DNA of 64,000 bases. Source: Ulva prolifera. Its lineage: Eukaryota > Chlorophyta > Ulvophyceae > Ulvales > Ulvaceae. Below are positions 8,458 to 36,400 of this stretch, one piece after another. The stretch spans positions 5,098,354 to 5,162,353 of the forward strand of contig CM041198.1 of NCBI GenBank assembly GCA_023078555.1, read 5' to 3'. Position numbers and translations under genes: made by a program. The notes below the pieces were generated by a model. It did not search any database. It was not told the origin of the DNA and saw only the letters and a list, made by a program, of their open reading frames with translations. The stretch's first letter is position 1; each line of letters begins with the position of its first letter.

Positions 8458-8487
8458 CTTGCGACAACAGAATTAGACGAGTTTTTA

Positions 8488-11019
8488 GTGCGGTCTTGTG
8501 ATAAGGATATCATTCCTTATATGGCCTTTTTCAGAGACACCTCCGTTGAGGTGTTCCAAGATCTGCTGCGGCAGCAGCGTCCGTGGGGGGTTGAGGTGTA
8601 TGCATACCCTAGGGATGACAAGCTGCGGAAGTTGTCCCAAAGGGGTGTCCTTGCATACTGGGTCGGGGCTGGGCTGGGCCCCAGCATGCAGCGTGTGTAC
8701 TCCCAGGATGTTCCTGGGGGAAGGGTTTTTGTTGTGCGTTTGGTTGTGTGCACTGCGGATCAGATGATCCGCCACGTACGAAAGTACGATGCGTCCGCCG
8801 TTGTGGACAAGAGGGAACCTGAGGAGTTTGCGAACTCCTATACCGTTGCCTTCGAGGGGGACGATGACGGTGAGCGTGTGACTGACGCTGATGTCCCTGC
8901 TTTCGCGGCGGAACACACATATGACGGGGGAGTGTTGCGCCGTCTGCGTGACCAGCTTCACACCCCCCCTGGCCATGGTAGGGCCCCTGTCATGGAAATG
9001 ACATTCCGGCAGGATAACCCTGAGCCTAGTCCTGCTGTGTACTCTCCGCGATTTGGAGATGGCTCCTCTGCGGAGATAATCCGGCGCGACCCTTCTCGGG
9101 CCACACCGGAGATAGCCAGATCAGCTTTGCATCGCACGCGTGCGACATCCAGAGCTGCTGCTCACCCTGACGTCCCTGTCCCCCCTCGTGTGCGCGGCGA
9201 AGTGCATCACCCTGTCGCCACGCCCTCCCGCACTGCGAAATATGTTGTCACGCGCAGTGCTATGTTGCACGACCCTGGTGTAGAAGTTGCGTTCCCTGTT
9301 CAACTGTCTGTCAGTGCGTCTGATGACGACATGGATGAGGATGACGACAGTCCTAGCATCTATGACGACGATGACGAACAGCGCATGGATTACACCGTCT
9401 CAGATGATGAAAGGGCTGCGGCTCATCAGAATCTGGAGGCTCAGCGGGTCCGTTTCGGGAGTAATTCGGCAGCGGCCTCAGCATCTGGCGCGGGGGCAGT
9501 TGCTCAGCCCTTGCGAGGAGCTGAGGCGCCGAGGCCCTTTTGGGAGGATGAGCCAGATGAGGTGGAGACCGGGTCCGAATTAGGGGGAGAGGATCCGGAC
9601 CCCTCAGCCGCAGTTGGGGTTGATTTGCCTGACGAGGTGAGGGCCATTCCAGCCGCCTTGCCTCGCATAAAAATCAATCCTCTTGTACGCAGACGCCTTG
9701 TTCCATTGGCTGCGGATGTAGCAGCTGTGCATTTGCATGAGCCTGCGGGCTCTGACTTTGCTAGCAGTGAGACAATTGTAGCTGCTATTGATGTTTCAAC
9801 TTGCGATCAGGACACATCAGCCGCGGCTGACTGTGGAGTGTCCTGTGCAGGCCTGAAGCCTCAGCATGTGGAGTCTGGTGAGCAGCAGAATGCTCAGCGT
9901 CGTGGGTCGCGCAGAGCAGCTGCCGCCAGGAAGCAGAAGCCTTCCGACCCTGATTTGCCTTCTATGAAGGAAGGACTCGCGGGTCCTGACAGGGATGCAT
10001 GGCTGCGTGCCATGCAGGAGGAGGTAGATGCACTGGGTGAGCACGGAACCTTCGGGTTGTGCTATCTGCCTGCGGGCAAACGGGCTATCTCGGGCAAATG
10101 GGTGCTCAAGATCAAGCGTGGGCCTGCTGGTGAGATTCAGCGGTACAAGGCACGTTATGTAGCGCGTGGTTTTTCTCAGGTAGAAGGTATAGACTTTTTC
10201 GAGACCTGGTCTCATGTTGGTAGTTATGCGACACTGCGTGTGTTGCTGTCAGTTGCTGCTCAGGAAGATTTAGAGATTAGGCATATAGACATTCAGTGCG
10301 CTTTTCTGAATGGTGAGTTAGAAGAAGAAGTGTTCGTTGAACAGCCCCCGTTCTTCACTGACGGGACAGCACATGTGTGGAGATTGCATAAAACCTTGTA
10401 TGGCTTGAAGCAAGCTGCTCGCGAGTGGCATAAAGCTTTAATCAAGGTCTTAGCTGAGATGGGATTTTTATGCGCACAAAGTGATCCCGGACTGTATGTC
10501 AGAACATCCGGTCGCTGTTTTATTTTCTTGTGGGTCGATGACTTGTTCATTTTTAGCAGCTCTGCGGGACTGCAAGAACTTGTCAACGTCATTCTCACGA
10601 AATTCGAAGGCAGAGACCTGGGTGAACTTGCATGGGCACTTGGCACAGAGATCATGCGTGATCGCAAGGCCAAAACAATCATCATGACACAACGAAATAA
10701 AATTCACAACTTGCTTGAAAAGTACAGTATGTCTGACTGTCGCAAGTCTCCCACTCCCTTAGTGCCGCGGCAACAACTAAGGAGTGCGAAAGAGCATCCT
10801 GACCTGGAGAAAGCCAGTGCTGCTGAGCATTCCAGGTTCATGAGTGCTGTAGGAAGTATCCAGTATATTGCAGGAGTGACACGACCTGACCTGAGCTATG
10901 TGGCACATGCCCTGGCCCGGCACATGTCAAGTAGTCTGAAGGAACATTGGTCTGCCGTGCAACATGTTCTGAGATACCTGCAGTCCACAAAGAAGAGCTG
11001 CCCGGACCTGCTTTGCTAG
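8488..11019 (+). pseudogene. copia integrase tail and reverse transcriptase, RNase H lost
   Basis: This 843-residue frame starts with a non-ATG codon and continues the upstream integrase frame. The first ~100 residues include a KLRKLSQRGVLAYWVG-type integrase tail. Residues ~150-490 form a long acidic, low-complexity linker. The copia RT follows: GKWVLKIKRG, YKARYVARGFSQVEGIDF, HIDIQCAFLNGELEEEVFVEQP, LHKTLYGLKQAAREWH and FLWVDDLFIF, the catalytic box near residue 684 with Trp replacing the usual Tyr. It ends soon after VLRYLQSTKKS, where an RNase H should begin. Only ~45 bp separate the stop from the polypurine tract, so RNase H has been deleted. Confidence 0.85.
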
Positions 11020-12249: not shown

Positions 12250-14452
12250 TTAAAACCTAGACTTTGTGACGTCCCTATGCAAGAGGGCACACGCGGCGAG
12301 CACCGCCGGCCCGACGAGGCGCTCCTGCAGGGCTGACCCGTTAGCGTCGACTCGCAGCTCCCGCAGACCTGCCGGAGCTGCGGCAGAATGGCCACGAGGG
12401 CTGCGCGCATGCGCTCCGGCCACAGCTGCGGCGCAGACCCATGAGCGTGTGTGTGCCACAGCAAGGCGCGCAAGCGCCGTCAGCGGCCTCAGTGAGCGTA
12501 GGAGGTCGGCAGCCTGACTCGCGTGCGGCACATTCGTGCGCAGGTTGATGTCGAGTTCCGTCAGCCCCACGAGTCGTGAGAGGCCTGTGGCGACCACGCA
12601 TGCCGTGTCCATCTCTGCATCCGCCTGCAGCCCCAGCTGCATGTCGATGATCGGATCGAAGAGGATAACGTCGGGGACGGTGCGGGCAAGGCGGCGGAGG
12701 GCCGTCAGGGTGCCGAGCGCGCTGCTGAATGTGTGCGCATGCTTCTTGAGCAGATCCGCCTTGAACCGCAGCTCCAGGCTCTCACGTGCAGCGCAGTCAG
12801 ACAAGGTGTCTAGAATCGCAGACAAGCCGCCTACGAGGTGGTGGCCAACCCCACGATCCACGCTCACGTGACCGATGCCGCCGACAGCAACGTCGGAGAG
12901 GGCGCGCATGGCCGGCACGGCCGCCGCGAGGGTGCGCAAAGCGCAGCAGTCTTCCGCGGTGGAGGGCACCGTGCGGAGGAGGCGGAGGCTGCGGAGGGTG
13001 GTGTAGCGCGCAACCGCACGCATGAGCGCCTCCATCGCCCGCTGTGGCAGGTGGTTGTCGGTTGCATCAAGGGCGCAAAGACTGGGGAGGGCAGCAAGTG
13101 CGACCGACAGGGCATCCACGGCAACCCCTGAGAGCGCCGCGCCGCTGACGTCGAGCGCTGTGAGCGCGGTGAGGGCGGTGAGGGTGGTGAAGGAGATGGC
13201 GGGAGCCCGGGGGAAAATCGCGTCAGCGAAGCTGAGGTTGGTGAGGGGTGGGAGCAACGGGAGCGCATCTATGGCCGCCTGGAGCGCGGGTGGGGGCAGG
13301 CGGAGGATGGTGAGGGTGCGGTGGGTGTCGGTGGAGGGGTGGTGGGCGCGGAGGACGGGGGCGTGGAAGGGGGGCGGGAGGTGGAGGAGGGCGTGGGGGA
13401 GGGGCACGAGCGAGAGCACGACGAGCTGTAGATGCTCTGGGAGGCCCACCACCTACACACACGTGAGTTGTCATGAGTCGTCCGTGCTGTGACCTCCAGA
13501 GATGCACATTCTTGTGTTACGGAGGTAAGTTGCTCGCTGGCTGTCATGGGCATCATGATTGACTAGACTGCAGTCTAGGCAATCTCTCGCACGCGGTGGA
13601 ATTGCAGCGCATAGGTAGTGTTTCGTGCGTCACATCACACGGCTGGAAAGTTCCACACACCTGGTCATGCACAGCCTGGGCAATGGTGCGCTCTTCTCGA
13701 TGCATGTGGGTGGCCAGGGCGGCTACGGCCTGGGCCTTGGTGGTGTCGTCAAATCAGCAGGTCTGCAGTCTGCAACAACCCGAGCCAGTGAGACCGAGAG
13801 CGTGGAGGTGCGTGTGGCTGCTGGTTGCACAGCTAAATCAGAAAAGACGGCAACGTCATCTGTACACATTCACCACATGATCACGATGCTTCTCTGCTCT
13901 TGATCACCAAGCAAATTGCAAGCTGTACACATCCGCCATGCTGTAAAACCCCTGAATGCGGCAGTACATGTTGTGCACTGCGTGTCTGTTCATGTCAGTG
14001 CTCTTTACAAGGCATTGCAACGCCAACGGGTGGACAGTAGGAGGACAGGGGAAGCACAGAGAAGCCAACCAGTATAAGTCCACGATCGGCTCTGACTCTT
14101 GCAATGCAACATGCACGCCTGTGCCGGGGTGGTTTTCTCAACTGCAGCAGTCCCATCAGCAGCAGTGGAGCTGGAGATTGCACCGCCGTTCTGAGCAACA
14201 TCAAACCCGCTTTCAAGATATTTATTCACGTATTGCAGCCATTCACGTACACCATGGAGCCATGCGAAGCAGTCCTCTTGACTGACAGGTGATAGCTTCT
14301 TCCGGTGACGCAGAGCTGTTGCGGATGTCTTGCAGCAGCTTGCTCCGTGATACGCACTCTGGCGGCACAGGTAGACCACCTGACGTTCCAACGACGACTT
14401 TCAAGCCCGTGGACTCTGTTCTGATGGCGATCGTCGGACCTGACGTCGTCAT
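12250..14452 (-). pseudogene. BTB-LRR paralogue A, broken
   Basis: The gene has the same three-exon plan as D. Exon 1 starts at ATG 14452 (MTTSGPTIAIRTESTG ... VSRSKLLQDI) but shifts frame after SASPEEAIT; the rest (SQEDCFAWLHGVREW) lies in another frame. Exon 2 (13661-13769, acceptor TTGCAG, donor GTGTGT) is 109 nt instead of 108 because of one extra T after the LLI codons. Exon 3 begins at 13452 after GTGTGTAG and reads LPEHLQLVVLSLVPLPHALLHLP, then ribonuclease-inhibitor-type LRRs. Around 12380-12450 two compensating frame changes alter the protein locally, and the frame then leaves the family after GPAVLAACAL, about 270 residues short of D. Three separate lesions make it a pseudogene, although its LRR frame alone is still 400 codons long. 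Confidence 0.75.
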
Positions 14453-15825
14453 TGCAAGCTACCGAGGACTGCTGCAGCACACCCTGTGTTGAATTTGATT
14501 CATCTTGACTCTACTGAACCTCATCATATCCATTTCCCGCTGCAGGTGCTGTGCACACGCTCCTAACGAGTCATGCACCGCATGCTGCCAGGATCGCGTC
14601 GAGCGGCGAGCTGATTGTGGCGAACAAACTAAACGGCGCCATCACGGCATCGAATGCCACGCAGCAGGTACCATTGTACCTCCTGCGTGATGGGTCGACC
14701 TGCCATCGCACTTCCCAACCGCAGCAAAGTGCTGTGCATGCTGTGGCATTTCGTGCACACCCCGTAGCCACTTTAAGCCAGTTTGAGAAGGTCGCATCGG
14801 CCCCACGACAATTATGAGTGTGATTGTGCCTCACGATGGCTCGCGTCTATACAGTGTCTCCTTGGCTGACGTTGGCTATCGTTAGCTCAGCCTGTCACGA
14901 TTGTGTCGTCGGGGGTCGAGACCTCGAACACATCTCTTGCCAATGCACTACCGTGCTGACAATTAAAGGGTGTTGTGTGCCAAGAAGGAGTACACGGAGT
15001 ATACAAGCTAAAAGATGCTTCATTGTACTCTGGATGCATAGCAGTGGCCCTTTACACAGAGAGGCTCCCTCAAGCACGCTCCGTAAAGCCAAAACACTGT
15101 CCCCTGTCCACTCCGCAGCCCTAGTGCACCAGGAGCTCACACAGGGACAGGAACTAGTCAAGCCGCACTACTGACCACGTCAAGCTACACAGAGGCCGCA
15201 CCTCTGCAACGCTCTCACTCTTACCAGCCAACATGACGTGTACTCAGGTTCCGCGAGGTACACAAGGTGGGGGTGCCTGCTGGCCAAGCACGGCAGTGAG
15301 GGCACTGCGAATGAGGTCCACCTTGGCCGCGTTCTGCCAACAACTGCCGGAGCGGTTGTGTGGGCTACCAGCATACTTTCGACACGTGAGTTCCGTCAGC
15401 AGCGGACTTGCACTGAGGGGATCAGCAGCCTGCCGCGCACGCGCTCCTGACATCATGCACTTGTGAAGGCACCTATGTGCCGTGCAACACTGCATCGATG
15501 GCATGGCGTTGCAGGCCACAATTCACCGTGCAGGGCGGGCTCCTCTGAGTCCGCGGCAGCATGCCGATCATAGCGGATATGCTGATTCATGCAGCGCTGA
15601 CGGTGCTGTTGAATGTTGGAGTGACTAGACAGACAGGATGTCAGTGTCGTGAGCGGGCTTGGCACAGAGAAGCCGTCCAGATTCAAACACTATGCGGTCT
15701 CTTCTTGAGGTGTGCAAAACGCTGCTGGGCTGGAGCGGGCTGGAGCGCATGGCGAGCGTGCGTGTGCTATCAACAACTTCGCTCACAAAAAAAAAGTCAC
15801 AGCCTTCTCCCGCCTCTGGACTCTC
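14453..15825. other. Spacer between BTB-LRR copies A and B
   Basis: The plus strand at ~14575-14820 (SGELIVANKLNGAITASNATQQ) resembles segments at the same place upstream of copies C and D, so it belongs to the duplicated unit and may be a remnant of a divergently transcribed gene. The rest has no recognisable gene; a minus-strand frame at 15244-15519 (AAKVDLIRSALTAVLG) has some coding character but no partner exons that I could join. Confidence 0.4.
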
Positions 15826-18747
15826 TCAGTCCTGCTCAAATCTAACATCGTGGCATGCCGCAGACTCCGCCGCTGCAGCCACGACCTGCTGCTTCTCTGC
15901 AGCACCCACCACCCCATACAGCCGTAGCGACCGCAGATGTGGCAAACCGCGTACGAGCTCAGCGACCTGCGCCACCTGATCCGGCTGCGCCACATGCACA
16001 ATCAACGTCCGCAGGGGCAGCGGCGCCAGCGCCGCCATGCATGCCGAATGCTCTGCCTCAGGGTACCCCATCAGGCAGAGCTGCCGCAGGTGCGGGGTCG
16101 CGGGGAGGACGTGCGCCGCAAGGCCCGCCACATCCCCTCCGCAGTGTATGCTGCACTGCAGCGACGTCAGCGCTGCGGCGCCCCCCAGCCCGGAAGGCAT
16201 CAGGCGCTGCGCGGCCGCGGCTCCGTCGGCGAAGAACGAAACGTCGACCGCGAGCTCGCGCAGGGGCGCAATGCACGAGACTCCTCGGAGGATGTCACAC
16301 ACCGGGCCGCCGACCTTGATAGCTGTCGAACAGATGGACAGCCGGTGCAGGGCGGTGAAGGCTGCAAGGTTGTAGGCGAATGGCGCGAGCCAGAGGTCAT
16401 GCCACTCGTCGATGCACACGTCGAGGGTGCGGACAAACCGCAGGAGGGGCAGATACGGCGAGAGGAAGTCGACGTCGGCGAGTTCATCGGCGTAGGCATC
16501 TCCATCGAGGCCGTAATTAACGACCGCGTAGAGGTCGATCGAGAGGCGCTGGATGTGGGATGCGGCGAGTATGGCCGTCACGAGGCGGCCGCTGCCGGCC
16601 GCGACGGCCTGCACGGGGAGGTGGAGCGTGCGCAGCTGGGGCATCGTGGTGGCTACGAGGTCCACAAGCGTGGCGACGGAGGCCGCACGTGGGGCGAACG
16701 TGGAGCAGTGGCAGCGCAGCTCAGTCAGCGCATGCATGTGCGGCAGCGCGCCGAGCACGACGGCGGCCTGGAACGGCGCATCTGCAGACTGGAGGCGGCC
16801 GTCGCGCAGATGCATGGACAGCACGCGCAGGCCGGTGAGCGCGGACAGGTGTGAAAGGGCGGGGGCGGCCTGGCGCCTCGCGAAAGTGAGGCCACAGGTG
16901 TCGAGCTTGAGGGCGGAGAGCTGAGTCAGCGCGCCGAGCGCGCGGCCGAGGATGTCGCGCTCGCCGCCCCACGTCTGCTGCGCATACGTGCTGTGCATGA
17001 TGGGTGCGCCGAGGTGCGGCACCGCGAGGTCGAGGCGGGAGAGGCGTGAGAGGCGCAGCAGCGCGGCCGCGAAGCGCGGGACGAGGTCGACTGCGAGCTT
17101 GAACTGCGAAAACTCGAGCGTGAGGGTGGCCATGCATGGGAGGTGCGTGAGGGCCTCGAGCAGCGCAACGGCGCCGGTGGAGAGGGCGTGGTCGGGGCGG
17201 GTGTGGCGGGCGGCGCCGACGCTGCCGACGTCGAGGGTCTCCAGGCGCGTCAGGGTGGACACGGCGGCGGCCAGGATGCAGACGCTGTCGCAGCCGGGCA
17301 CGTTGAGGCGGATTGCGGACAGGAGGTTGAGGGTGGCGAGGTAGGTGCAGCGGCCGAGCGAGGGCGCGAGCGCATGCATGGCCGGCGGGGTGATGCTATT
17401 GGCGCTGAGGTCTAGGGCGGCGAGGGCCGGGAGGGCGGGGATTACCGCGGCGAGCGTGGCGGTGGCGGCGAACGAGAGTGCGGCGTCATGGAGGTTGAGG
17501 CTGGTGAGGGCCGGAAGAGCGGAGAGGAGGGGGGCCAGGGCGTTGGTGGGGCGGGGCAGGGTGAGGGCGGTGAGGGAGAGCGTGTGGAGGTGTGTGATAG
17601 CGCGGGCGGCGAGGAGGGCGGGGGTGACGGCCGCAGGGGGGAGGCTCTGGAGGTGGAGGGTGTGGTGGGTGTCGGTGGAGGGGTGATGGGCGCGGAGGGC
17701 GGGGGCGTGGAGGTCGGGTGGAAGGTGCAGGAGGGCGTGGGGGATCGGCAGGCGCTCAAGCACGGCGAGTTGAAGGTGCTTGGGTAGGGCGTGTAGGGCC
17801 TGCGGACGGATTATGTGATCAGCAATGCCTCTGTGGCTACAGGCGTTGGGGCTGATCGCTGGTCGCTCGCCTGAGGTAGCTGAGAGCGTGCCTCAGGACA
17901 AAGCAGGTCATGTGAATGCCAGTAACAGTAAAAACTTTCGTGACGTGTGTGTCTAGCATGACGTGGGTTGGGGGGCGTGTCCGAGAGTTGCTGGCCGACG
18001 GACGCGATGAATTAGTTCGCTCGCGAGACTGTCCAGCTTCGCTGATGTCTGTGTGCAAACGTCACAGCAGTCTCCAGCGCAGGGTGTAAGGAGCTCGTGC
18101 CTTTTGGGCAGCATCCGCCGCAGTGCCAAGCTGTCGCAGGGCGCTGGCAAGCTGCTCAGCTGCTACGCCCTTCGTCTCTTCGTCGATCAGCACGTCTGCC
18201 GCCTACAGGTGACACGTTCCGTTGGCGAACAACCGCCTTTTGGTTTTTTTTTCTACTTTTAGTACATAGGCACACGCTCTCTTCGCAGAAAGGCTGGGCG
18301 AGCAGCGGAAAAGCGCTAGCCACACATGAACTGGGAACAGACCATCATGAGCGTGCACAGCTCGCCTGCGCAGAGATCATCAGCCCCATCCTCTTCCAGT
18401 GGCTGTTGATATATACCAGGTAAATGTGATGTTACCTGCAGCAGCATGGCACGTCGTCACTGTGGCATGATCTGGTGCCAAAGACTACCCTTCCAGCGTG
18501 AGCAAGGCATTGTGACGGCAGACGGGGGAGGGCGACGGACGTATGCATGCCATAGCATAAATGCTTCTTCACTGAGCGGCAGCGTGGTGTCTCCTCGTTC
18601 TGTAGCAGCGAGGGCGACGTCCAGCAGCAGTTTGCTCCGCGAGATCAGTTCGTCTGGCACGACCTGGTGCTCGCCACAGCTGCGACATAGCTGCACGCCT
18701 AGTGGACTCAGCTTCACCCAGGATGTGGTTGCGCTTGCTGATGCCAT
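15826..18747 (-). CDS. BTB/POZ-LRR protein, paralogue B (three exons)
   Basis: Proposed exons: 18489-18747 (ATG at 18747, MASASATTSWVKL ... ISRSKLLLDVALAAT ... LPLSEEAF), 18101-18195 (DVLIDEETKGVAAEQLASAL) and 15826-17799 (LRR exon, acceptor GTCCGCAG). The joined frame is 2328 nt, 775 residues. Exons 1 and 2 together resemble a BTB/POZ (SKP1-like) fold. Exon 3 opens with an F-box-like helix (LPKHLQLAVLERLPIPHALLHLPP) and continues as ~600 residues of leucine-rich repeats of the ribonuclease-inhibitor kind. BTB-LRR proteins of this type are expected to be substrate adaptors for cullin-RING ubiquitin ligases, an inference from architecture only. Exon 1 is shorter than in D, and the exon 2 donor would be the rare GC type (AAG/GCACGA). 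Either point may mean the 5' part is imperfect. The LRR frame itself is unbroken. Confidence 0.65.
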
Positions 18748-19626
18748 CGCCCGGCCCCTTTCCGTACCGACCGGTGCCGTGATTACAGCTGCTGCCAGGT
18801 CGTGTGGAGGTGCCACAGTGTGCACGGCCCGTATCTTGTGCAATTACATTGGCCATCGCAATTGCTGCAGGCAGAAGGTAGCACTGGCCGCAAACATGGG
18901 GATGTTGAAGTCGTTGACCGGCACGCAGCGCAGTCGTCGAAACAATAGCACAATCTACAGGTTACCAGATGGTGATGTTGCTTCGGATGGGATTCGGTTT
19001 CGGTGTTTGTTTTCTCCCGTTCACTCTTTTGTAATGTACCGGTTACCAGATACGCCTAGATCTATCTCTAGAGCGGCGCGTGCAACTGTTGAATAGACAT
19101 GGGTAGACATGGGTATGTAGCACGATCGCGAGTAGCACGCATGGAGCGATCGTCTAAGTAGCAGTCCTTCGACATAAGACGTGGTACTGGAATGTTCTTC
19201 CTGCACCAAGCTGGGGTGTCCAACCATTATCTCTGCGCATGCTGCACGCTTGCTGCACTACTACGAACGAGGAGCTGAACGAGATGAAGCACCGAGTTCG
19301 CTAGAGTACGCGGTACGCGTACCGGCGTCGCCGCCGCAGACAATCCAACTCTGCCGCAGCCGCCATCTATGGATATACGAGCCTGGGTTGGGTGAGCATG
19401 ATTCAAGTCGACTTTCGCCTACCCCGTCCGACCAGAGTGCCAGCTGCAGCTGTGCGCATGCAGTGCTGTGGATCAGTGCGCACGCTCTTGTAGCTAGCTA
19501 GCTAGAGCTCGTAATACCTCGGTGGGTCATCAAAGCCCCACACGGTTGATGAAACGACGTGAAGATGCACGACCTCGACCGGAATCGTCGGTCAAACGTG
19601 CAGCACAAGCTCTTTGTCTAGCCATG
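18748..19626. other. Spacer upstream of BTB-LRR copy B
   Basis: No gene is recognised. It presumably holds the promoter of copy B. A short CTAG microsatellite lies near 19491-19505. Confidence 0.4.
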
Positions 19627-20298
19627 CATAATCACACCTGGCATGTACATCCACGTGGGGCAAGGCAGGTTTGGCAGTACTCACGGTCCCGTCTGATGAC
19701 CTCTCGCCGCTCACAGGCCGTCCGGCCTGAGCAGTGGGGTGCCCCTCGGGAGCCCCGTCCGCTTGACGCCACCAACCGATGGCCTTGAGATCTGACTCCG
19801 CTAGGCTGGATCCAATTGGCGTGCGGGATGCCTTTGTTGGCATGTGCAGGGATTGCGGAGACGGCTTGGGCAATGCATTGTCCTGGGTGCGGTGCGGTGC
19901 GGCGTGGGCCGGCGAGGCTACGCGGCGGTGTGCCGGGCTGGCGTGGTTTGCTGTGGCTGGGGGGGTGGGGTCTGGGGCTAGGGCGGCCCCCAGCAATCGG
20001 GCGGCCATGATGGGCGGCCTCAGGCAGCAGTGTGTTAGGCGTGGCCCTGTCGTAGAGAGGCGGGCGTTGTGGTGTTGGCGGTTGTGTTGCTGTGTGTGGG
20101 CCGTGGGGTCTGTGCGTGCGTGTATGGGTGTGTGGGTGTACACATGTGTGCTTGGCGGTCTGCGGATCTGTGTGGTTTGCTGCGCCGGTGATGGGTCTCT
20201 GGCCATGGTGAGTGTCGCGTGCGTGGGTGTTTGCTTCGTCTGTTTGCTTCTTCCGCGGTGCTGCCTTTGTCCTTGTAACATAATCACACCTGGCATGT
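19627..20298 (+). mobile_element. 5'-truncated LINE copy 1 with 20-bp target-site duplication
   Basis: A 632-bp insert (19647-20278) is flanked by a perfect 20-bp direct repeat at 19627-19646 and 20279-20298. Its 3' end is GCTGCCTTTGTCCTTGTAA, shared with four other sites in the window. Long perfect target-site duplication, a constant 3' end and a variable 5' end are the marks of LINE retrotransposition with 5' truncation. There is no poly-A tail; the end carries TGTAA, the green-algal polyadenylation signal. The Cys-rich plus-strand frame inside it has no recognisable domain and is probably not a host gene. Confidence 0.8.
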
Positions 20299-21929
20299 GG
20301 GTCTTGTGGTGCCATCTGCGTCTCTGGCGGGGTCCGTGCAACACTTAGCATGTCCAGTGCATCGGCTGGAGTGTGAGGTGGTGTTCACGCCTTGTGTCGA
20401 TGAGGGTTCTTGCTATCTGTTGTTTGATTCGAGTTGGTGCTCCACCGTACAGCGGCACGGGATATTGTAATTACATTGTAAACTGACTGTCTGCAATGCA
20501 TGGCACAGTCTGCACCATATCGCGGCATCCCTGTGCTCGCGTGCTGTGTATCTTGCCCAAACTCATGCGCACATGATACTTCAGGATCCTTCACTCGAAA
20601 GCCACCCAGATGAGGAAACTTTTTCGCATCGGCCTCGGCATCACCGGTAGACCAACTTGTTGCATGCCGCTGGTCAATTGAGTTCCTCTCCATGCACATG
20701 ACCGCAGCGCTTCACCAAGGGCAGCTGCTGTGCCCAGATGCGGATGCCGCGCCAGGGTCGCACCCAGCCCGCATTCAGCGAGCAGGGTCTGGGCTCTGCA
20801 GCGAGCAGGTGCGGCGGGAGTGCCCCGGGCCACACGCAAACTATTACATCAATGGCAGGGTGGGGGCTGGCATCTCTTGCTGCCATTGGGAGGGGGCTAC
20901 ATGAGACTCGGCATACAGCCCCACTGGCATGCATGCGGCGAGCTGCTGCGCTCCGAGTGCGCTGGCACATGGACTATGCCCTGTCGGCATGCCCACCTGC
21001 TCCACCATAAAGCAGTTCTGCATTCCAAAATTCAGCACATCTAGGCCAGCGACAACACTCACCCACCCTGTGACAACCAATGTGGCGCGAGTGGCCATGA
21101 GGCAGCGGGCACAGAATAGGCGGGCGCATGAGGAGACACTTGTAGCACACACTGCGCGGCGTGTGGACGGGCGCATGGCAGTTGGCATCCGTAACCGCTG
21201 CGGCCGTCCAGGATCATGGTGATGCGAAGGCCTTGTGTGTTTGTTGACTTGCTTCGCGCAACCACCTCGAGAACTGGCAGCTTGCAATCGCTCAGACGAT
21301 TTGCCGCACGCTCATTCAGCCCGACGCAAGTCCCACCACCGCTGTCTGCAACTCACAGCCGCACGCAACGTGTGCACCAGCCCTTACCAGACGTCCTTTT
21401 AACTCGTGAATCGACATTCTGACCAAAACTGGACGTGCACAGCGCCTTCTCGTGATACGCACAGTTCGATCGAGCCGCCACCTCACGCCAACTCCCATTA
21501 AATCCACCTCATCGATGGTGTTGGGAACCAAACGATGCGCATCGGCCTGGCCTTGATAGCGTCCGCATTCAATCGCCAACATAGCCCACATGGATCTGCG
21601 GTCACGCGAAGGACCTGCTTCACTGCACGTGCCTACATCGTATGCATACAGTCTGGAGGCTCCCCATACAGTGTGGAAGCCTGGCTACATCCTGTCGTCA
21701 GAAGCCAGCCAAGCAGATCCATTACGCGGGAGGACGTAGCTCCTCACTCTCAGCACACGCATTCACACCTGATAAGTTGGAGCTGTCGATCAGAGCAAGC
21801 ATCTCAAGTGACAGACAGATGTCCCGAGACGTGGTCTGCACATGCGAGGTGTCATGGGCGTACGGCCAGGGGACACGTGTCAGCCAAAACATGCCAGCCT
21901 CACTGCAATGAAGAGTCCAACAACCACGC
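20299..21929. other. Spacer between LINE copy 1 and BTB-LRR copy C
   Basis: No gene is recognised. A minus-strand frame at 20844-21287 contains a hydrophobic stretch (TLVVTGWVSVVAGLDVLNF) that could be a membrane-segment exon, but no joined model could be built. Confidence 0.35.
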
Positions 21930-23105
21930 AGACGAGTCCTGTGCGACGCACTGGCACGCCGGCAGCTCGGCCGCCGCCTGCTGCAGCTCCAGCACCGCCT
22001 GCTCGCTCGGGGCGTCCCACACCTCGATGCGCCGCAAGTGCGGGAGGTGCAGCACGAGGCACTGCAGCTGCAGCACCTCCCCCCGCTACGGCATGTGCAA
22101 CACCAGCGTCTGCACGATCAGCTGCGGCAGCACCTCAAGCCATGCCACATGATCCGCTGCCGGGTAAAACCCGAGATGCAGCTGGCGCACGCCGGTGAGC
22201 GCGGCGCACGCCGCCGCAAGGCGCGGCGCCGGCGGCATAGCTGACTCGCGGGGGCGGGGACATTCCCCCCGGTGCGGCACCACCGTGCATTCCATCGTCG
22301 TCATGCCTGTGAGCTGTTGCGGCGCAGGAAGACCGGACCCATGGGGGGCTCCTCCGGCGGCGCTGCCGCGTACTGTAGTTTCACGCGCAGCTCCCGCAGG
22401 CTGCCGAGAAGCACGATCTCCTCCACGACCTTGCACAGGCACCCCGGCGCCGGCGCATCCACGCCCGAGATGTGGCACCTTGCCAGTGCGGTCATCTGCG
22501 GCACGGCCGCTACCAGCGGCGCGATCAGCGCGTCGTCGTCCTCTGTTGCAGAGACCACGATTGTTCATGTGTGTGGCAGGATCGGCACGAACGGCTCGAT
22601 ACGGCTGGGCTATTCCCCTGGACGGCGTGTGAGCCTGCAGGTGCCACCTGCGGCCGCCACGGTGAGGTCGAGCGCGAGCTGCTGCAGGTGCGTGGCGGCG
22701 AGGAGGGCGGGCAGCAGGACATCGCGGGCTCGAACCGTCGTGCTGAGGCTGGCGTGCAGCGAGGTGATCTGCGGGAGGGCGCATGCGGCGAGCAACGCCG
22801 GCCCGACAAAGTCGTGCTGTAGGTTTAGGGTGGCAGCGAAGACGCGCAGGTCTTAAAAGCTGGGGAGCTGCGGCAGCACAGCCGTGAGGGCCTCCTCGGG
22901 CATGCACTGCCGGCACCGGCGGCAGGACTGTGACACCACGAGGCGTGTGAGCGCCGTCAGCGGCGACACCGTACGCACCAGCTTGGCGATCGTCCGCTCA
23001 CACCACGACATTTACGGCAGATCGAGATCGAGGGCCGTGAGGCGCACAAGTTGCGAGAGGCCGGCCCCGAGCACGTGCTCCATGTCTTCCGCCGCAGGCA
23101 CATCT

Positions 23106-23269
23106 GTCCGCGGTTTTACGCCAACATAGGCCTCACGGACGTCAGGGGGCGTGAGGGAGAGGCGGCGGAGGGCCGTCAGGCGGGCGAGCGCGTCGCTGAA
23201 CGCGGCCGCACACTCACACGGAATGGACATCCCGGTCCGCGGTTTTACGCCAACATAGGCCTCACGGAC
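23106..23269. repeat. 35-bp perfect direct repeat inside LRR copy C
   Basis: The 35 bp at 23106-23140 recur exactly at 23235-23269, 129 bp apart, encoding DVREAYVGVKPRT twice in the same frame. Copies A, B and D lack it. Confidence 0.85.
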
Positions 23270-24542
23270 ATCCCGTTCACGAACGTTGAACGGGAGCAAC
23301 AGGTCCAGGTCCACAAGCGTGGTACTCTCGTTTAGGGCGCCCAGTAGCGCGGTCAGGCTGGCTGCGGAACGGTGGTCGTCCTTGTTCTTTTCGCAGCTCC
23401 CGCCGACGGCGAGGGCGGTGAGGGCGGCGAGGGCGGTGAGGGCGGTGAGGGCGCGCATCTGCGGCACGGACGCCGCGAGTGCGCTCACGGCGCCGCAGTC
23501 GGCGGCGGTGAGGGGCACCGTGCGGAGGAGGCGGAGGCTGCGGAGGGTGGTGCAGCGTGCAACCGCACGCATGAGCGCCCGCCTCGTTGGCAGCGGCAGG
23601 CGGTCGTCGCTCGCATCTAGGGTGCGGAGGCCGGTGAGGGCGGCGAGCGCGGCAAGCAGGGCCCCCTCGGCGGCGTTGGAGAGGGCAACAGCGCTGATGT
23701 CGAGCGCCGTGAGGGCGGTGAGGGCTGTGAGGGCTGTGAGGGATCTTGCGGCGCTGCAGGGGACGGCCGCGCCGGCGAGGCTGAGGCTGGTGAGGGGCAG
23801 CAGGAGCGGGAGCGCTTTGACAGCTGCCTGGAGCGCGGGCGGGGGCAGACGGGAGATGGTGAGGGTGCGGTGGCTGTCGCTCAAAGGGTGGTGGGCGCGG
23901 AGGGCGGGGGCGTGGAAGGGGGGCGGGAGGTGGAGGAGGGCGTGGGGGAGGGGCATGCGCGCAAGCATGGCGATCTGGAGGTGCTCTGGCAAGTCATCCA
24001 CCTACGGGAACGCTGGTGGTCATGCGTCACGTGTGACTGGCTGTTTCTGTGATGTACATGAGATGTACATGCTGATGTAATGGTCACACGGCACTGAATG
24101 GCTGCAGTTGCGACGTGGTTGCGTTGAATTCTGGCACGCGCTGATGATGGCCATGTATCAGATGCATATGCTGCTACCTGCTGGGTTGCACACGTACACA
24201 CCGCGTGTGGCTGGACGTGACACACCTGAGGTGCCATGGCCTGGAGAACGGTGTCCTCCGCATGTTGCAACCGCTTGGCGAGCTCGGCCGCTGCTTGGGC
24301 CTTAGTGGTGTCATCTATCAGGACATCTGCAGTCTGCAGAAGTGCCAGGCCACTGTGATCGAGTGGAAGAAAGCAGTACTGGTGCATATGCCTGTTCGTG
24401 AATCAGTCACTACATTGGAAAGCAACGCAAGCTGCACAGGTCACTGCATCTTCAATACTACACGTTTGTTATGCACCATGCAGGTTGTGTGCTTGTGCTC
24501 GCCAATGGTTGGTAAGGTCACTTCTGTGGACAGGTGCTGGAC

Positions 24543-24602
24543 ACACATCGTAGAAAGAAACATGCTGCCTTTGTCCTGGTAACACATCGCAGAAAGAAAC
24601 AT
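24543..24602 (+). mobile_element. LINE copy 2: an 18-bp insertion with 21-bp target-site duplication
   Basis: ACACATCG(T/C)AGAAAGAAACAT occurs at 24543-24563 and 24582-24602 with one mismatch. Between the copies is GCTGCCTTTGTCCTGGTA, which matches the last 18-19 bases of the LINE family. It is an extreme 5' truncation and lies in intron 1 of BTB-LRR copy C. Confidence 0.7.
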
Positions 24603-25543
24603 ACCAGCAAAAGTCTGCAAAAAGACATGACCGTTTCGTTGACATGATGCACGCCTGTGACCTGTTGAGTTTCTTCGCCTGCATCATCAACTTCGGCAGC
24701 AGTGGAGCTGGATGGTGAGGCGCCATTCTGATATCGCACTTGAGGTCAATCTTTACAAACCGGAGGCAATTCAGGCAGTCCTCTTCGCCGACAGGGATTG
24801 TAGCCTCTTCATTCAATGCTGAGGGACTGCAGATATCACATAGCAGCTCGCTCCGCTTTCGACATTCTTGGGAAGCAAATTTCGTGGATGACTGTCCAGC
24901 ATTGACCTTCACGCCCGTAGACTCGATCCTGATAGAGGTTGTTGGACCTGACGTCGCCATGGCGTGCTACCAAACGCATGCATCGGTATGAATGAATCAT
25001 GCGTACATATAAATGTGCATCTTGTGGAAATAAGTGCTGTGCAGACGCTTTCAACGTCGCTTTGTCCACATACCGTCAGTATCAGTCGATTGTACCCAGC
25101 GAGTCCACAGGCGCCATCTGCCATAGCATCGTGCGTCATGTAGCACTGCAGTTCGTGTTTATTCCAGCAGTCGATCTGCCATTAAGATTCGCAACCGAGC
25201 AGCACAGTGTGGTCGTGTATTGCACACCCTCGCGCCACTTGGATTCGCGCTGGAAGAAGGGTGCAGCGATTCCACGAAGTGATCGTTCATTTGAGGCATT
25301 CAGCCTGAGCATGTCATGGAAACATACTTAGGTAGAGCTTCCGGGCGAGAATGTGCAGACTGTCTGCACAGCATCAACAGAAATGTGGACAGTACTAGTT
25401 ACCTGTGGACACAGAACAGCGATCACTCACCTTGGTCGAGCTCATCAGCGTATCAACGCCACAGACTTGACCATATCATTCGTGATACACATTTGCCATT
25501 GGCCTGGATGTCAAGGAGGGGCACACGCAGGGCACAAGCACAG

Positions 25544-25776
25544 ATGATGCGCGCTGCGTTTTCTCTGGGTACCAAGGAGTGAGTGCACCCCAAATAGACC
25601 AGCTTCCAGCCATGGAATTGAGACCAGACTTGTCGCAGGCACAAGAGGTCCTTGATTTGATGGGTCCCAACCAGCAACACAAGCTTGCTCTCACAAGCAG
25701 GCCGTCCAGTACAATAGCAGAACGTATCCAACTGCATGACAATCCATTTGGAGCTCGACACATCACGTGCAGATGA
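25544..25776 (+). CDS. Possible exon of an unrecognised plus-strand gene
   Basis: After an acceptor (AAGCACAG) the frame reads DARCVFSGYQGVSAPQIDQL and then PAMELRPDLSQAQEVLDLMG to a stop at 25774-25776. The composition is soluble and protein-like, unlike neighbouring chance frames. It lies head-to-head with copy C and tail-to-tail with copy D. A second candidate exon follows at 26038. No family is recognised and the full model is not solved. Confidence 0.3.
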
Positions 25777-25981
25777 TTGAAAGCGCAACTGAGCCAGAAC
25801 TAGCTACATTCCGGCATTCATAGCCTTGCATCATGAGGACACAAGGGTGCATATCCCAGGGCCAGGATACGACATGATTATGCCAGCAACAGGCCAGCGC
25901 CGCAGCTGCGACTGAACAGCAGCAGCATCGGACCCAGCTCCACACTCACCGCACCCATACAGTATTGTAGCACAGGGGCTG

Positions 25982-26030
25982 ACCATGTACATGCATGGCT
26001 GCACCATGTACATGCATGGCTGCACCATGC
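25982..26030. repeat. Tandem 21-bp repeat, about 2.3 units
   Basis: ACCATGTACATGCATGGCTGC is repeated directly, followed by a partial third unit. It lies just before a candidate splice acceptor at 26037. Confidence 0.8.
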
Positions 26031-26037
26031 CCCGCAG

Positions 26038-26276
26038 AGTTTACCACAGTCGCTGCCAGCCTCAAAGGCTCTGGCTGGCGCACTTCACTTCAAGCAGCTA
26101 TACAGACCAAGGACTCTTTGTACCTCAATGGCTGCAGCCTGGACGGCGAGCTCGATCCATCCACTCACCTCTCGGCAGCGGCGCCCTCAGGAGCATGCAG
26201 ACTGCCGTTCGCACTCGCTCTCACACATGCAAGCAGCTCCTCTCTGGGTCGCCGCTCAGCTCAAGGAGGTGTGTGA
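26038..26276 (+). CDS. Possible terminal exon of the unrecognised plus-strand gene
   Basis: After acceptor CCCCGCAG the frame reads FTTVAASLKGSGWRTSLQAA and IQTKDSLYLNGCSLDGELDP, ending at TGA 26274-26276, 130 bp before the 3' end of copy D. It looks coding but has no recognisable motif. It may join the exon at 25544. Confidence 0.3.
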
Positions 26277-26408
26277 AGCAGATGTGTTGCAGCGCGCATG
26301 GAGAACTCCACAGTATACTGTCATAGGGGCTGGCACTCGAGTCACGAATACGGACAGCTCAACCCATGCGTCACACACTCGACCTCAGAGTGCCTGTTGG
26401 TGTCACGT

Positions 26409-29400
26409 TCAAAAGCCCAGATCGACACAACGGCATGAGGGCAGTTCGGCCGCCAGCTGCCGCAGCTCCTGCAGCGCCTGTGCTCCCAGGTCACCCCGTG
26501 TCTCCAAGAGGCGCAGGTGCGGCAGCCGCGGGACAAGCTCCCGCAGCAGCAGCCCCTCCCGCCGCGACGGCGTGCCCACGATCAGCGTCTGCAGGTGCAG
26601 CTGCGGCAGCACCTCCAGCCACACCGCGTGATCCTCCGCCTCGTACACCCCGACGTTCAGCCGGCGCAGGCCGGGAAGCGCGGCGCACACCGCCGCCAGC
26701 CGCGGCGCTGGCAGCGGCACGGCCGTGTGGACCTCAGCATCCGCGTGCGGGTGCGCCACAGCCATGCATTCAAGCACGCTCAGGCCTGTCAGCTGCTGCA
26801 CGCGGTGCAGGAACACCGAGCCGACGGGGGAGTCCCGCGGCGGGCCTTCCTCGTACTCTAGACTCACCCGCAGCTCCCGCAGGCCGCCGAGGAGCGCGAC
26901 CGCATCCAGCACGTCGCGCATGCAGCCCGTCCCGGGGACATCGGTGCCGCTGATGGTGCACCTCTCCAGCGACGTCATCTGCGGCACCGCCGCCGCCAGC
27001 GGCGCTAGCAGCGCTTGGTCTTCAAAGGGAGCCAGGCAGACGTCCAGTGCGCGAACGTGCGGCAGCAGCGGCACAAACGGCTCGAGGCCGCTGGCTTCTG
27101 AGACGGACCGCCTGAGGTCCAGCGCGAGCTGCTGCAGGTGCGTGGCGGCGAGGAGGGCGGGCAGGAGGGCATTGCGGGCATGCGCCGTGGTGACGACGCA
27201 GGCGCGGAGCGTGGTGATGTGCGGCAGGGCGCAAGCGGCGAGCACCGCCGGCCCGGCGAAGCTCTCCTGCAGGATTACACTTCTAGCACCAACGCGCAGC
27301 TGTTGCAGGCTGAGGAGCTTTGACAGCGTGGCCGTGAGGGCGCTGCTCAGGAGGTCCGGCATGTCGATGCCGTAAAAGCCGGGGTCGGGGAGCGTCACCG
27401 CCAGGCCCGCGAGTGCGGTCAGCGACGCGACCGCACGCAAGAGCACAGCAGACTGTGCCGCGCACGAATCTGTTGTGTGCAGCTCAAGGTCGAGCACTGT
27501 CAGGCGAACGAGGCGCGACAGGCCGGCGGCAAGGACGCCGTCGGTGTCAACCTCGGGCTCCACCTCCTGCCACAGCTGCATGTCAATGTTGGGTTCGGCC
27601 GGGAGGACGTTGGGAACGGCGAGCGCGAGGCGGCGGAGGCAGGGAACGTCCGCCAGGCCGCCGAGCGCGTCGCTGAACGCGGCCGCAGAGTCCCCCGGCA
27701 GCTGGAACCTGAACCGCAGCTCCAGGTCCTCGAGCGCGGCGCACTCGTGCATGGCGCCCAGCAGCGCAATCAGGCTGCCCGCGACACGGCTGTCGTCCTC
27801 CGCGCCGCTCCGATATTCGCTGCCTACGCTGCCGACAGCAAGGGCGGTGAGGTGGAGAAGGTGCGGTATCACCACTGCGAGGGCGCCCGCAGCGCCGCAG
27901 TCGGCGGCGGTGAGGGGAACCGTGCGGAGGAGGCGGAGGCTGCGGAGGGCGGTGCAGCGCGTGAGCGCAGGCGCGAGCGCCTCCATCGCCGTCAGCGGCA
28001 GGCGGACGTCGCTCGCGTCGAGGGTGCGGAGGCTGGGGAGGGCGGCGAGTGCGGTCGCAAGGGCCCCCACGGCTGCCTCAGGGAGGGCTGTGCCGCTGAC
28101 ATCGAGCGCCGTGAGGGCGGTGAGGGCTGTGAGGGCTGTGAGGGAGATGGCGGTGCCGCGGGGGAAGGCCCCGCCGGCGAAGCTGAGGCGAGCGAGGAGT
28201 GGGAGGAGCGGGAGCGCTTTGACAGCTGCCTGGAGCGCGAGCGGGGGCAGACGGAAGATGGTGAGGGTGTGGTGGGTGTCTATGGAGGGGTGGTGGGCGC
28301 GGAGGGCGGGGGTGTGGAAGGGGGCCGGGAGGTGGAGGAGGGCGTGGGGAAGGGGCACGAGCGCGAGCACGGCGTGCTGGAGGTGCTCTGGGAGGCCCGC
28401 CACCTACACACACGTGAGTGGTCATTAGTGATGAACAACACGCCAGTGGTGTCAATTGTGAACGTACGGGTGCATTGAACTGGGTCGCCAGGTGTCATTG
28501 GCCGGAGTCTCTGGCACGCCCTGGTGAGGTGGCAATGCATGAGTTTGACGGCAGCTTGACGGCAGGTCAGGGCAATTACTCAACACTAAGAGTGCACTGG
28601 GCGATGCTTGAGAGCAGCGTGTCCCAGCTGAATGTTACCAGTCGCCAGGCAAACGCTGCCTTGCAAGGCTTCGCAGTGACTGTGTCATTCAAAGCTCAAC
28701 ATGGGAAAGCTACTCCCGGACCAGCAGTCCAGATGGCAAGACTTTTGGCTTGCCGCCGGCGGTGCAAGGTACAGTGGATGGAGCCACCATGCTGTCAGAG
28801 CCCATATGTTGTTCCTTGTTGAAAGAGCACTGCGAACGCAGAACAGGACCATGCCCCTTGCCGCATGCTACCAGGCAATGGCAGAAACTGTCTCAGCATA
28901 TCGTGTGCAGCAGATGCAGAGATAGTGTGTTCACCAAATTCATGGGTGGCAGCATGTGACTCAGAAACATCACATTTAATTTGCTTGAATAGGAAGGGAT
29001 CAGATCGTCATGCTCGGACATCCTGATAGTGAATCATTCGTACTCAAAAGGTCTGTGAGTGCATCCGGACAGTTTTATGAACCGCAGCAGCACACTCTGC
29101 ACCTGTTGGGAGCACCAATGGTCTCTTTTCCGAGCAGATCCTTGACAAACTCCCTGTCACCGCGCACAAGAACGTGCATGGTGTGCTGTGTGAAAAGCCC
29201 ATGTGGCTGGCATGCAAAAGCCAGCGGATGTAGCCGACGCACCTGAGACTGCACAGCCTGGGCAATACTCTGCTCTTCTTGTTGCACCTGCTGGGCGAGG
29301 GCGGCTGCTGCTTGTGCCTTGGTCGTGTCATCAATCAGCAGGTCTGCAGTCTGCAACGATCAAAGGCCGTGGAGAGCATGAAGGCGAGATGTGTGTGTGC

Positions 29401-29933
29401 ATGATTGCAGGATCATCGCATGAGATGAGAACACAGTATGAGCGTGTATTCTGCGTCTCAAACTTACACGGTTCTATCACATCATGCAGACTGTTGTCCA
29501 TGAAACTCAATGCTGTGCTCAAGGCGTTGCTGGGCCGAACGGTGGACATGCAAAGCACAGAGCATACCCGGATGAGCCTGCAGCACGTCGTGATCGTTTC
29601 GTCGATAGCTTGTGTGCCTGTGACACTATCACTTTCGTTGAATGCAGCAGCAACCTCAGCAGCAATGGAGCTGGACAGCGAAACGCCGTTGTGCACAGCG
29701 TCAGGAGAGCCCCTGAGATCATCCTTCACATGCCGAAGCCATGCTACGCAGTCGTCCTGACTGATAGGAATGCTAGCTTCCTCGTGTGAAGCCAAGCTAC
29801 CGCAGATGTCTTGTAGCAGCTTGCTCCGTGATACACACTCTGGGGGCGCATCTTCCGTAGCTGATTGTCTCAAGATGACTTTTATACCGGTAGACTGGAT
29901 TCTGATCGCTGTTGTGAGACCTGATGTCGCCAT
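26409..29933 (-). CDS. BTB/POZ-LRR protein, paralogue D (intact, three exons)
   Basis: Exons 29568-29933, 29243-29350 and 26409-28403 join in one frame to give 822 residues. Exon 1 starts at ATG 29933 (MATSGLTTAIRIQSTGIKV ... PPECVSRSKLLQDICGS ... ASIPISQDDCVAWLRHVKDD) and ends at donor GTATGC. Exon 2 is 36 codons (TADLLIDDTTKAQAAAALAQ), acceptor GTTGCAG, donor GTGCGT. Together they resemble a BTB/POZ or SKP1-like fold: the IRI..TGIKV strand, the SRSKLL helix, an acidic/Ile strand, and a late LL..AD.LI..... helix. Exon 3 follows acceptor GTGTGTAG and has no ATG of its own. It opens with LPEHLQHAVLALVPLPHALLHLP, F-box-like, then ~600 residues of LRRs (LTALTALDVSGTALPEAAV). The likely role, by architecture, is a cullin-ligase substrate adaptor. 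It is the best reference copy for the array. Confidence 0.75.
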
Positions 29934-33482: not shown

Positions 33483-36400
33483 ATGCTGCTTTTGTTCTTG
33501 TTGATCGCGCTTGCGTGCGATGCCGTACATGTCGCTGTGCGGCCTAATACTCTCTTCGTGTCAGCTGCAAAGCAGCTCAGGAAATCTGTGAACATGCGCC
33601 GTCCTGGAGGTGCACAGCGAGGCCTGTTCCTCACCTGGGAAGAGGCGCATAAGACAGGCAATCTACCGGAGCTCGACGAGCCTGTCCGCGCTCCAAGCGG
33701 CGATAACTCCGTGGCCATGTGCACAGTCATGAAGCAAGAGAACAGCACAGACGTTCGAGAATGGCTTTCCTACTACAGGTTTGTATTCCCCGGGTCGATC
33801 TAGCGCGCTTCTATCCGTAGCTCTGGATGCACAAAGACATTCGTGTGCACCGCTGAAGCGACGGTGCTAGGCCAACACAGCCGGAACACGCGTGCGTAAT
33901 GACAGTAATCATCAAGCGTACGTAACATCGTATGTTTTTTATCCGTATCTATGCATTGTGTACGCTGAGCTGCGGGAGTTCGGCCCATGTGCGGTATTGC
34001 GTCATCGAGACACACTCGGAATTGCCATTCGCCAACGCGGAACGATATTCAGCTCCATAAAGTATGATCGAAGCAGGACTATGCCTTGTCGACTGCATGC
34101 GCACGCAAGTATGAGCACCATCAGCATGGCGCTGCAATGGCCTGATGCCGCGTGCAAGCTCTCCATAGGTCCTTCGCGTCACGTCGCCTGCCGGTTTCAC
34201 AATCACCCGTGATATGCCTCCAGCAGAAGTCTGGTGCAGCGAGGTCGCCATCACATCGGACGCACCGCTGTGTGTCAGGCGCCCCGCGTGACTGGTGCTA
34301 CTGCCAGCACCGCAATATCACCGGTGGCGAATACATCAGCCATGCCGACCACTGCTGCGCAGCAGTGGCGGAACATCTCTTTCAATCATCGGTTAAGTCT
34401 GCATCAGGCTCGCCCCAGAGAGCGTACTTGATTACTCGCAGTCCTGTTGCCTTATCACAAATGGCCCGGCCCTAGCTCCAGTGTTGATGCTCTGACAGCC
34501 ACAAACCAGGCATCGGTCTGTAAGTGAAGTGGATATTATTCTCATCGGTTTCCAGTGGCCACCTATCATCCTTCCATAGTGTTTGCATGCGAACCACGCC
34601 ACTGAGTGCTGCACCATAGTGCTGCACCATCCACTGACCACCATCAGTGAGCCACCCAGTGATCCACCCAGTGAGCCATAGCAAACACGATTGCATGGCT
34701 GATGTGTTGGCAAGTGCATCGCAGGCTCATCTCAGGCTCTGACCCTGCTCCAAGGCTACATGCAGCATAGCACCCTGCCTGCCTGTGCCTCACTGAGCTG
34801 CACTGCTGCATGCATATAGCCTTATCTTCAGATATGCAGGAGACGCATGTGCCAGGGCTGCCCTGCCTGCCTGTTGCGGTGCCCTGTGGATGCGACCAGG
34901 GTATGCACAGGGTATGCACAGCAGGCTTCGCTCCAACCGCACCTTTGCAGTGCTCCATTTCGTAGACAGCGGCAGTGGCGCATTCCACACAGCCACGGAG
35001 GATGGCTGCCTGCTCATGCATACACACAACCACACATACGATGCCATTTGCGTACCCTGCCTGTTGCATCACAGCGACTGCCTTGTCATCTCTGTCCCGT
35101 GACTCCCGGCCCGGCGGCGCCCATGACTTTTCTGAAATCATTTATACAGAGCGTATGCGCACTGAGTCTGTGTTGACCAGTGTTGGGTCATTGGGCCCGA
35201 TCACACAGAACAATTCCGAATACTCATATCTCATTTCGGGGTGGCAGCCCTGGAATTGCTCCGAAGCGACTCACCCCTGGTGTTGACAGCCCCCCAACCC
35301 CAGTTGCACCCCCCCGGCATATGTGCCGCCCCTGACTCATTCTACTACCTCCCATCGACCATGCGTTGCAGGTGGCTAGGGGTGGACCACGTCTACCTCA
35401 CCGAGAACTCGGAGCAGCGCTCGGAGGAGCTGTACGCGCAGCTTGCCGACTTTGTCGAGGAGGGCTTCGTGACGTACAGCCTCGAGGCCGTGCCGAAGGG
35501 CCAGACGAAGGTGTACTACGACTGCATGAGCCAGCACTACCACAAGCACAACTGGCTCATGTTCTTCGATATGGATGAGTACCTCATCCTCACCGGCCAG
35601 TGCGCCTCCCACCCCCTCCTGCCCTCTGACAGAGTCAGGTTGTCTGGATCGTCGGACCACCGATTCTGGTGGTGCCTGATAGCACGACCTGGTGCTTGCC
35701 CGGAGACCCATTGAATTGTGACCGCTGTCTGCGCATGTACCACACTTGAAATCAGTGAATTTTTCAGATGGATCGTGGCCTCGATGTATCTGGGTTACGC
35801 GGTACCTGCTTTGGTGTTCAGCCTTGCACCATCCCTGCTGTTATGGTTTTTCCCGCGCCGACTTCCCCCATGCACCCCCCGCTCGCCTGGGTGCGGGCCC
35901 CGCCTGGGTGCGGGCCCTGCCCCTGGGATGTGCGTGTGGACGGCTGTGGATTGGTTCACTGACAGACTGGATGCTCACTGACAGCAAGGCAGTCTGAGAG
36001 TAGGTCGTGCGGAGCGCGAGCAGCGCCAATGTAATTGCTGTGAGTTAGCTGCTGCATGCCGCATTCGGCTGCCTCGGCCGGGCATGCACAAAACAGTACA
36101 TGAAATGCCACCATGCAGGCCCGACCAGAAGCTTCCAGCCTTCCTCGATGAGTACAAGGAGTTTGCGGGGCTTTCTGTGCACTGGGTGATCGTCGGCCCG
36201 AGCGAACAGGACCGCCGGCCGCGCGCCGGCGGCGTCATGCGCACCTACAGCCACTGCTCGGCGGCCGCGAGCCCCTGGATCAAGACGATCGCCAACACCT
36301 TCTACCTCACCAACATCGCCTACCACCCCCACAACTTTGAGTTCCGGTGCGGCGCCCCATACGCATGAGCTGCATGCGCTGACCCCTGCAAATGCCAACA

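Follow-up and report, generated by a model that had tools for sequence, protein, structure and literature searches.

The window analysed here, a stretch of 64,000 nucleotides from the genome of Ulva prolifera (G000:C3:5098354-5162353, in an assembly of 88.9 Mb and 44 contigs), contains four minus-strand gene copies, here called A to D. Copy D is intact and belongs to a large family, dispersed over this eukaryotic genome. Its product would consist of a BTB/SKP1-like domain, a short helical opening that is F-box-like in layout, and a solenoid of ribonuclease inhibitor (RI)-type leucine-rich repeats (LRR). On balance, our analysis favours the view that the family encodes cullin-RING substrate receptors that evolve by birth and death.

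Gene plan of copy D and its dispersed relatives

Splicing and translation of the three exons of copy D (Table 1) across the junctions 29568/29350 and 29243/28403 yielded a single frame of 822 residues, as proposed in the initial annotation, and both introns are of the GT...AG type and in phase 0. Judged from the sequence, the gene plan is real and the gene probably functional, with an uncommon architecture that is shared by a sizeable family.

The family counts are lower bounds, and the weakest matches may represent other LRR proteins. A search of the genome with exons 1 and 2 of copy D gave 22 matches at E ≤1 in 17 loci, and the opening of exon 3 gave 29 matches at E ≤1e-3. With a hand-composed, consensus-like family probe, 55 matches were obtained at E ≤1e-3 in 46 loci. 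The exon-3 opening of the probe (query start ≤60, end ≥75) is covered at 37 loci on contigs C1-C7 and C9, including the four in the window. The copies had been described as a tandem array and the four are indeed clustered, but the family is not solely tandem, since related loci are found on all of these contigs.

The splice plan was compared in a sample of 24 loci, consisting of the four copies in the window and 20 loci from elsewhere in the genome. An exon-1 match at E <0.003 was identified in 20 of these, and weaker matches in L070 (0.023) and L065 (0.083), while the frames of L061 and L073 contained none. Of 25 sequences examined for exon 2, 17 have its start, AADVLIDE or a near variant, immediately behind an AG; the other eight gave no match. 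The edge of exon 3 was examined in 20 of the 24 loci (all except L068, L071, L072 and L073), one of which, L075, lacks the motif. All 19 loci with the motif contain a phase-0 AG ahead of the exon-3 opening, two codons before it in A, C and D and otherwise three, in a region where AG makes up 5.6% of the dinucleotides. In eight members, read-through of intron 1 would lose the frame, since the intron either contains an in-phase stop or is not divisible by three in length; the GT donors of these members were picked by hand at GT, and the GT itself is no evidence. These results support the conserved splice plan that had been suggested for the copies. Three exons are not universal, as the LRR part is split over two frames in L056, L057 and L063. 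In their relative L058, the LRR frame is extended by an open segment of more than 100 residues, which resembles an intron that stays open in-frame.

Domains of the encoded protein

The sequence comparisons support a kinship of exons 1 and 2 with SKP1 and BTB domains. The family alignment, A1, excludes copies A and C because of their broken frames. The exon-1 loop was trimmed at the conserved Trp helix in copy B, L058, L060, L063, L068 and L069, where the donor is ambiguous, and a stretch was removed from L056 and L057 as a presumed additional intron. In hhalign, exons 1 and 2 matched SKP1/Elongin C (EloC) with a score of 32.8 over 116 collinear columns, at a probability of only 60%. The best of 300 column shuffles scored 18.6, and none of the 300 reached 32.8. 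Single templates gave scores of 27.7 (SKP1 only), 26.1 (the genome's own SKP1 only) and 21.9 (EloC only), as against 6.6-10.5 for ten decoy LRR profiles. The Pfam cut-off for Skp1_POZ was passed by L077, one of 21 family rows. L077 is an exon-1-like frame on the plus strand (C2:4190908). An exon-3-type match (C2:4194056) follows about 3 kb downstream, and the family member L070 is located nearby on the opposite strand.

The AlphaFold2 model of exon 1 in copy D has a mean predicted local distance difference test (pLDDT) score of 70.6, with residues 11-70 in blocks at 84-87. The six best rows in a comparison of this model by VIA were EloC and SKP1 chains, but with low Z-scores and an unrelated chain close behind. 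In a search of the PDB with profile A1, a cyclase came out on top (E 0.11) and yeast Skp1 was placed second (0.16) and fourth (1.1), with noise in the remainder, and this search was set aside.

A canonical SKP1 is encoded in the same genome (L076, L079 and L080; C3:341416-342061, minus strand). Its nearest solved chains are from Arabidopsis, and it has PLMN where plant SKP1 has PLPN. The idea that the family shares an intron with SKP1 was rejected, as a reading of the frames of this gene placed its introns elsewhere.

The model of exon 3 shows an RI-type LRR fold, predicted with confidence as a horseshoe of alternating strands and helices. Its neighbours in the PDB, as identified with VIA-align, include RI, the NLR proteins NLRP3, NLRC4 and NOD2, F-box LRR proteins and Rna1p, which strongly supports the ribonuclease-inhibitor type originally assigned. 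A phmmer search of the PDB with the 822-residue product identified DRC5 (E 0.0034) and chains of CARMIL and RanGAP (0.19-0.87), all within residues 159-316. Profile A2 gave two matches in the PDB, neither of which was an F-box protein; a designed protein at E 2.3e-4 consisted of three matches of 6.6 bits and was rejected as a repeat effect. The Pfam scans of exon 3 from copies D, B, A and C showed weak LRR matches and noise, and the scans of the exon products contained no NB-ARC or NACHT domain.

The opening of exon 3 is predicted to form three helices (residues 6-15, 18-24 and 27-37), and 20 of its columns resemble the six F-box templates beyond 200 of 200 shuffles. None of 17 family rows had a Pfam match to F-box or F-box-like models. 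A six-frame, exon-by-exon search of the genome gave 4 BTB matches and 18 and 20 F-box matches, all of which are lower bounds. The F-box matches are all located outside the family loci, and about 8 kb separate the closest one from the weak match at C5:9102215.

Candidate functions and related systems

According to the favoured reading, the domain encoded by exons 1 and 2 would dock on a cullin and the LRR horseshoe would select the substrate, so that the whole protein would serve as the substrate receptor of a cullin-RING ligase. Growth of the family would occur by tandem and dispersed duplication, and copies would be lost as pseudogenes. In other proteins, SKP1-type domains bind to cullins and LRRs bind to substrates. 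These roles are also summarised in PMC1257465. Cullin matches were identified at three places in the genome, and from the analysis as a whole we only infer cullin binding, substrate binding and a ubiquitin function. If true, the ubiquitin-ligase receptors of this eukaryote would have expanded through the family, in a genome in which the search counted only 4 BTB matches and 18 and 20 F-box matches (lower bounds). Other lineages have expanded their F-box and BTB proteins, and the family would be a counterpart of these with another type of receptor. The joining of SKP1-like and F-box-like parts in a single chain could be put to the test here, and the family would be the eukaryotic counterpart of the BTB-LRR proteins of the amoeba-associated chlamydiae.

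In FBXL proteins (SKP2, FBXL2, FBXL17, D3), SKP1 is a separate protein and the F-box is a recognised one, whereas the present family carries its SKP1-like domain in cis and gave no Pfam match to an F-box. Rad7-Elc1 (5zb2) likewise consists of two chains rather than one. The family shares the core of SKP1/Elongin C, as suggested by the profiles and the exon-1 model, and several members have a long variable loop after the Trp-bearing helix that is comparable to the loop after A3 in Skp1 described in PMC1257465. It differs from SKP1 in that it lacks the C-terminal helices, is fused to LRRs and has introns at positions other than those in the genome's own SKP1.

The architecture had been called unusual, but fusions of BTB and LRR are already known from parachlamydiae according to PMC1257465 and PMC4209131. 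The PEX1 proteins of Parachlamydiaceae also have an N-terminal BTB domain and C-terminal LRRs, with birth-and-death expansion and tandem copies, and are bacterial, proposed secreted effectors (PMC4209131). The Ulva family is eukaryotic, with three exons and a SKP1-like sequence, and the two are compared here by their architecture. No such BTB-LRR family was found described in algae in open-licence papers; an Ulva paper, PMC8891106, reports a putative nucleotide-binding site (NBS)-LRR protein. The suggestion of a lineage-specific E3 adaptor family agrees with the family size, while restriction to the lineage was checked solely against viral and prokaryotic sets, in the contigs of which no relatives were confirmed.

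Several results weigh against the favoured reading. Pfam reached no BTB or Skp1 model with exons 1 and 2 of copy D, and Foldseek with the exon-1 model gave no support for BTB/SKP1. The F-box-binding helices at the C-terminal end of SKP1 (PF01466) matched solely at the canonical SKP1 locus and at no member of the family, which speaks against a plain SKP1 role. So does the absence of the PxPN motif for contact with cullin-1 from all 21 rows, although the genome's own SKP1 also lacks it. The BTB/SKP1 fold split by an intron, as initially annotated, is thus backed by the profile comparison, in which the score exceeded those of all 300 shuffles, by the one Skp1_POZ member and weakly by the exon-1 model, but not by Pfam for copy D or by Foldseek. 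Finally, RI and NLR rows also align from residue 1 of the exon-3 model, which suggests that the opening may be an LRR cap and weakens the F-box part. Of the F-box-like opening that had been proposed, the three predicted helices and the likeness over 20 columns stand against this alignment and the Pfam null.

The same alignment of RI and NLR chains makes it less likely that the proteins are one-chain adaptors of the SKP1-cullin-F-box (SCF) type, in which two parts that are separate proteins elsewhere, a domain like SKP1 and a helical linker like an F-box, would be fused in cis before the RI-type LRR in dozens of genes. We consider this version doubtful, as judged from the sequences. If true, no free SKP1 would be needed for each receptor to reach a cullin.

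The main rival is that the BTB/SKP1-like domain merely self-associates, as many BTB proteins do, and that the proteins are intracellular recognition receptors or scaffolds, with LRRs that sense microbial or self ligands and no role for a cullin. This would fit the presence of RI, NLRP3, NLRC4 and NOD2 among the LRR neighbours and the absence of PxPN, and decaying tandem copies with high values of dN/dS (the ratio of nonsynonymous to synonymous substitution rates) in the array would suit recognition genes. However, RI-type LRRs are also found in F-box LRR proteins and Rna1p, Pfam identified no NB-ARC or signalling domain, and the nearest relatives of exons 1 and 2 by profile and fold are SKP1 and Elongin C, which are cullin adaptors. 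We regard self-association without a cullin as rather unlikely.

It was also considered whether the array is a functionless, decaying remnant of a family that drifts in a transposon-bearing stretch. Copies A and C are broken, Ty3- and Copia-type elements are located in the same window, and dN/dS in the array is 0.80 for D/C, 0.67 for D/A, 0.67 for A/C and 0.82 for D/B. Such values, 0.67-0.82, are as expected from dead copies and fast change. However, copies D and B retain open frames of 664 and 688 codons, and L062/L064 elsewhere in the genome are under purifying selection, with a dN/dS of 0.39 for exon 3 and 0.47 for exon 1. Values of 0.38-0.49, at dS 0.9-1.05, were obtained for another four pairs that are not in the array. 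These substitution patterns show purifying selection in some pairs of the family alongside the decay of copies. That the array is a functionless remnant seems unlikely. Least probable, and quite improbable in our view, is that the likeness to SKP1/BTB reflects convergence of a small alpha/beta domain in LRR proteins with an unrelated N-terminal domain, since the Pfam and Foldseek nulls, the low Z-scores with an unrelated chain close behind and the modest hhalign probability are countered by a collinear match over both exons that no shuffle equals, by the low decoy scores and by the one member above the Skp1_POZ cut-off.

The other array copies and their surroundings

In copies A and C, tblastn with the exons of copy D identified homologous exons in the same order; in copy B, it identified exons 1 and 3. 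The nucleotide repeats are consistent with homology among A, C and D, and extend to B in the opening of exon 3. Exon 2 of copy B was missed by tblastn with the D exon, yet the sequence at 18202 reads AG followed by AADVLIDE.

Table 1. Exons and exon-like regions of the four gene copies, in positions of the window.
Feature	Position	Strand	Description and basis
Copy D exon 1	29568..29933	-	122 codons; BTB/SKP1-like N-terminal part; splicing and translation, AlphaFold2 model, SKP1/EloC profile match
Copy D exon 2	29243..29350	-	36 codons, (T)ADLLIDD...; end of BTB/SKP1-like domain; splicing and translation
Copy D exon 3	26409..28403	-	664 residues and stop; three-helix opening, then RI-type LRR
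Copy C exon 1	24605..24960	-	tblastn with D exon 1, donor read from the sequence; frame change between 24739 and 24727
Copy C exon 2	24226..24333	-	tblastn, 61% identity
Copy C exon 3	21945..24001	-	pseudogene; first in-frame stop 23014-23012, more stops and a frame change
Copy B exon 1-like region	18514..18747	-	tblastn, 27% identity to D; donor ambiguous
Copy B exon 2-like region	18095..18202	-	AADVLIDEE...; end approximate
Copy B exon 3	15826..17799	-	inside 688-codon open frame; acceptor CCGCAG before 17799
Copy A exon 1	14131..14452	-	tblastn; frame change near 14300
Copy A exon 2	13661..13769	-	first six residues out of frame
Copy A exon 3	12250..13452	-	400 codons, premature end

Read from their frames, copies A and C are pseudogenes. 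Exon 3 of copy A aligns with that of copy D up to residue 395 of 664, and exon 3 of copy C contains in-frame stop codons that start at 23014, 22855, 22612 and 22567, with the frame change further on. The long frame of copy B is intact over exon 3, while its exon 1 is strongly diverged and the donors of exons 1 and 2 are ambiguous. A tree built from 17 exon-3 openings united A, C and D in a clade with a support of 100/100 and placed B apart, which suggests that three of the array copies are related duplicates, of which two are dead, and that a more distant relative is located between them. The four-copy minus-strand array with a three-exon plan thus holds for copy D and for the exon homologues in A, C and B, but two of the copies are pseudogenes and B has diverged strongly.

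No tRNA was found in the window. Its left edge contains a part of a Ty3-type polyprotein with matches to RNase H, integrase and a chromodomain (2-3346, plus strand), and a Copia-type reverse transcriptase frame adjoins the array (8458-11019, plus strand; RVT_2, E 2.2e-54). A frame at 35166-35711 on the plus strand is weakly similar to glycosyltransferase family 2/92.
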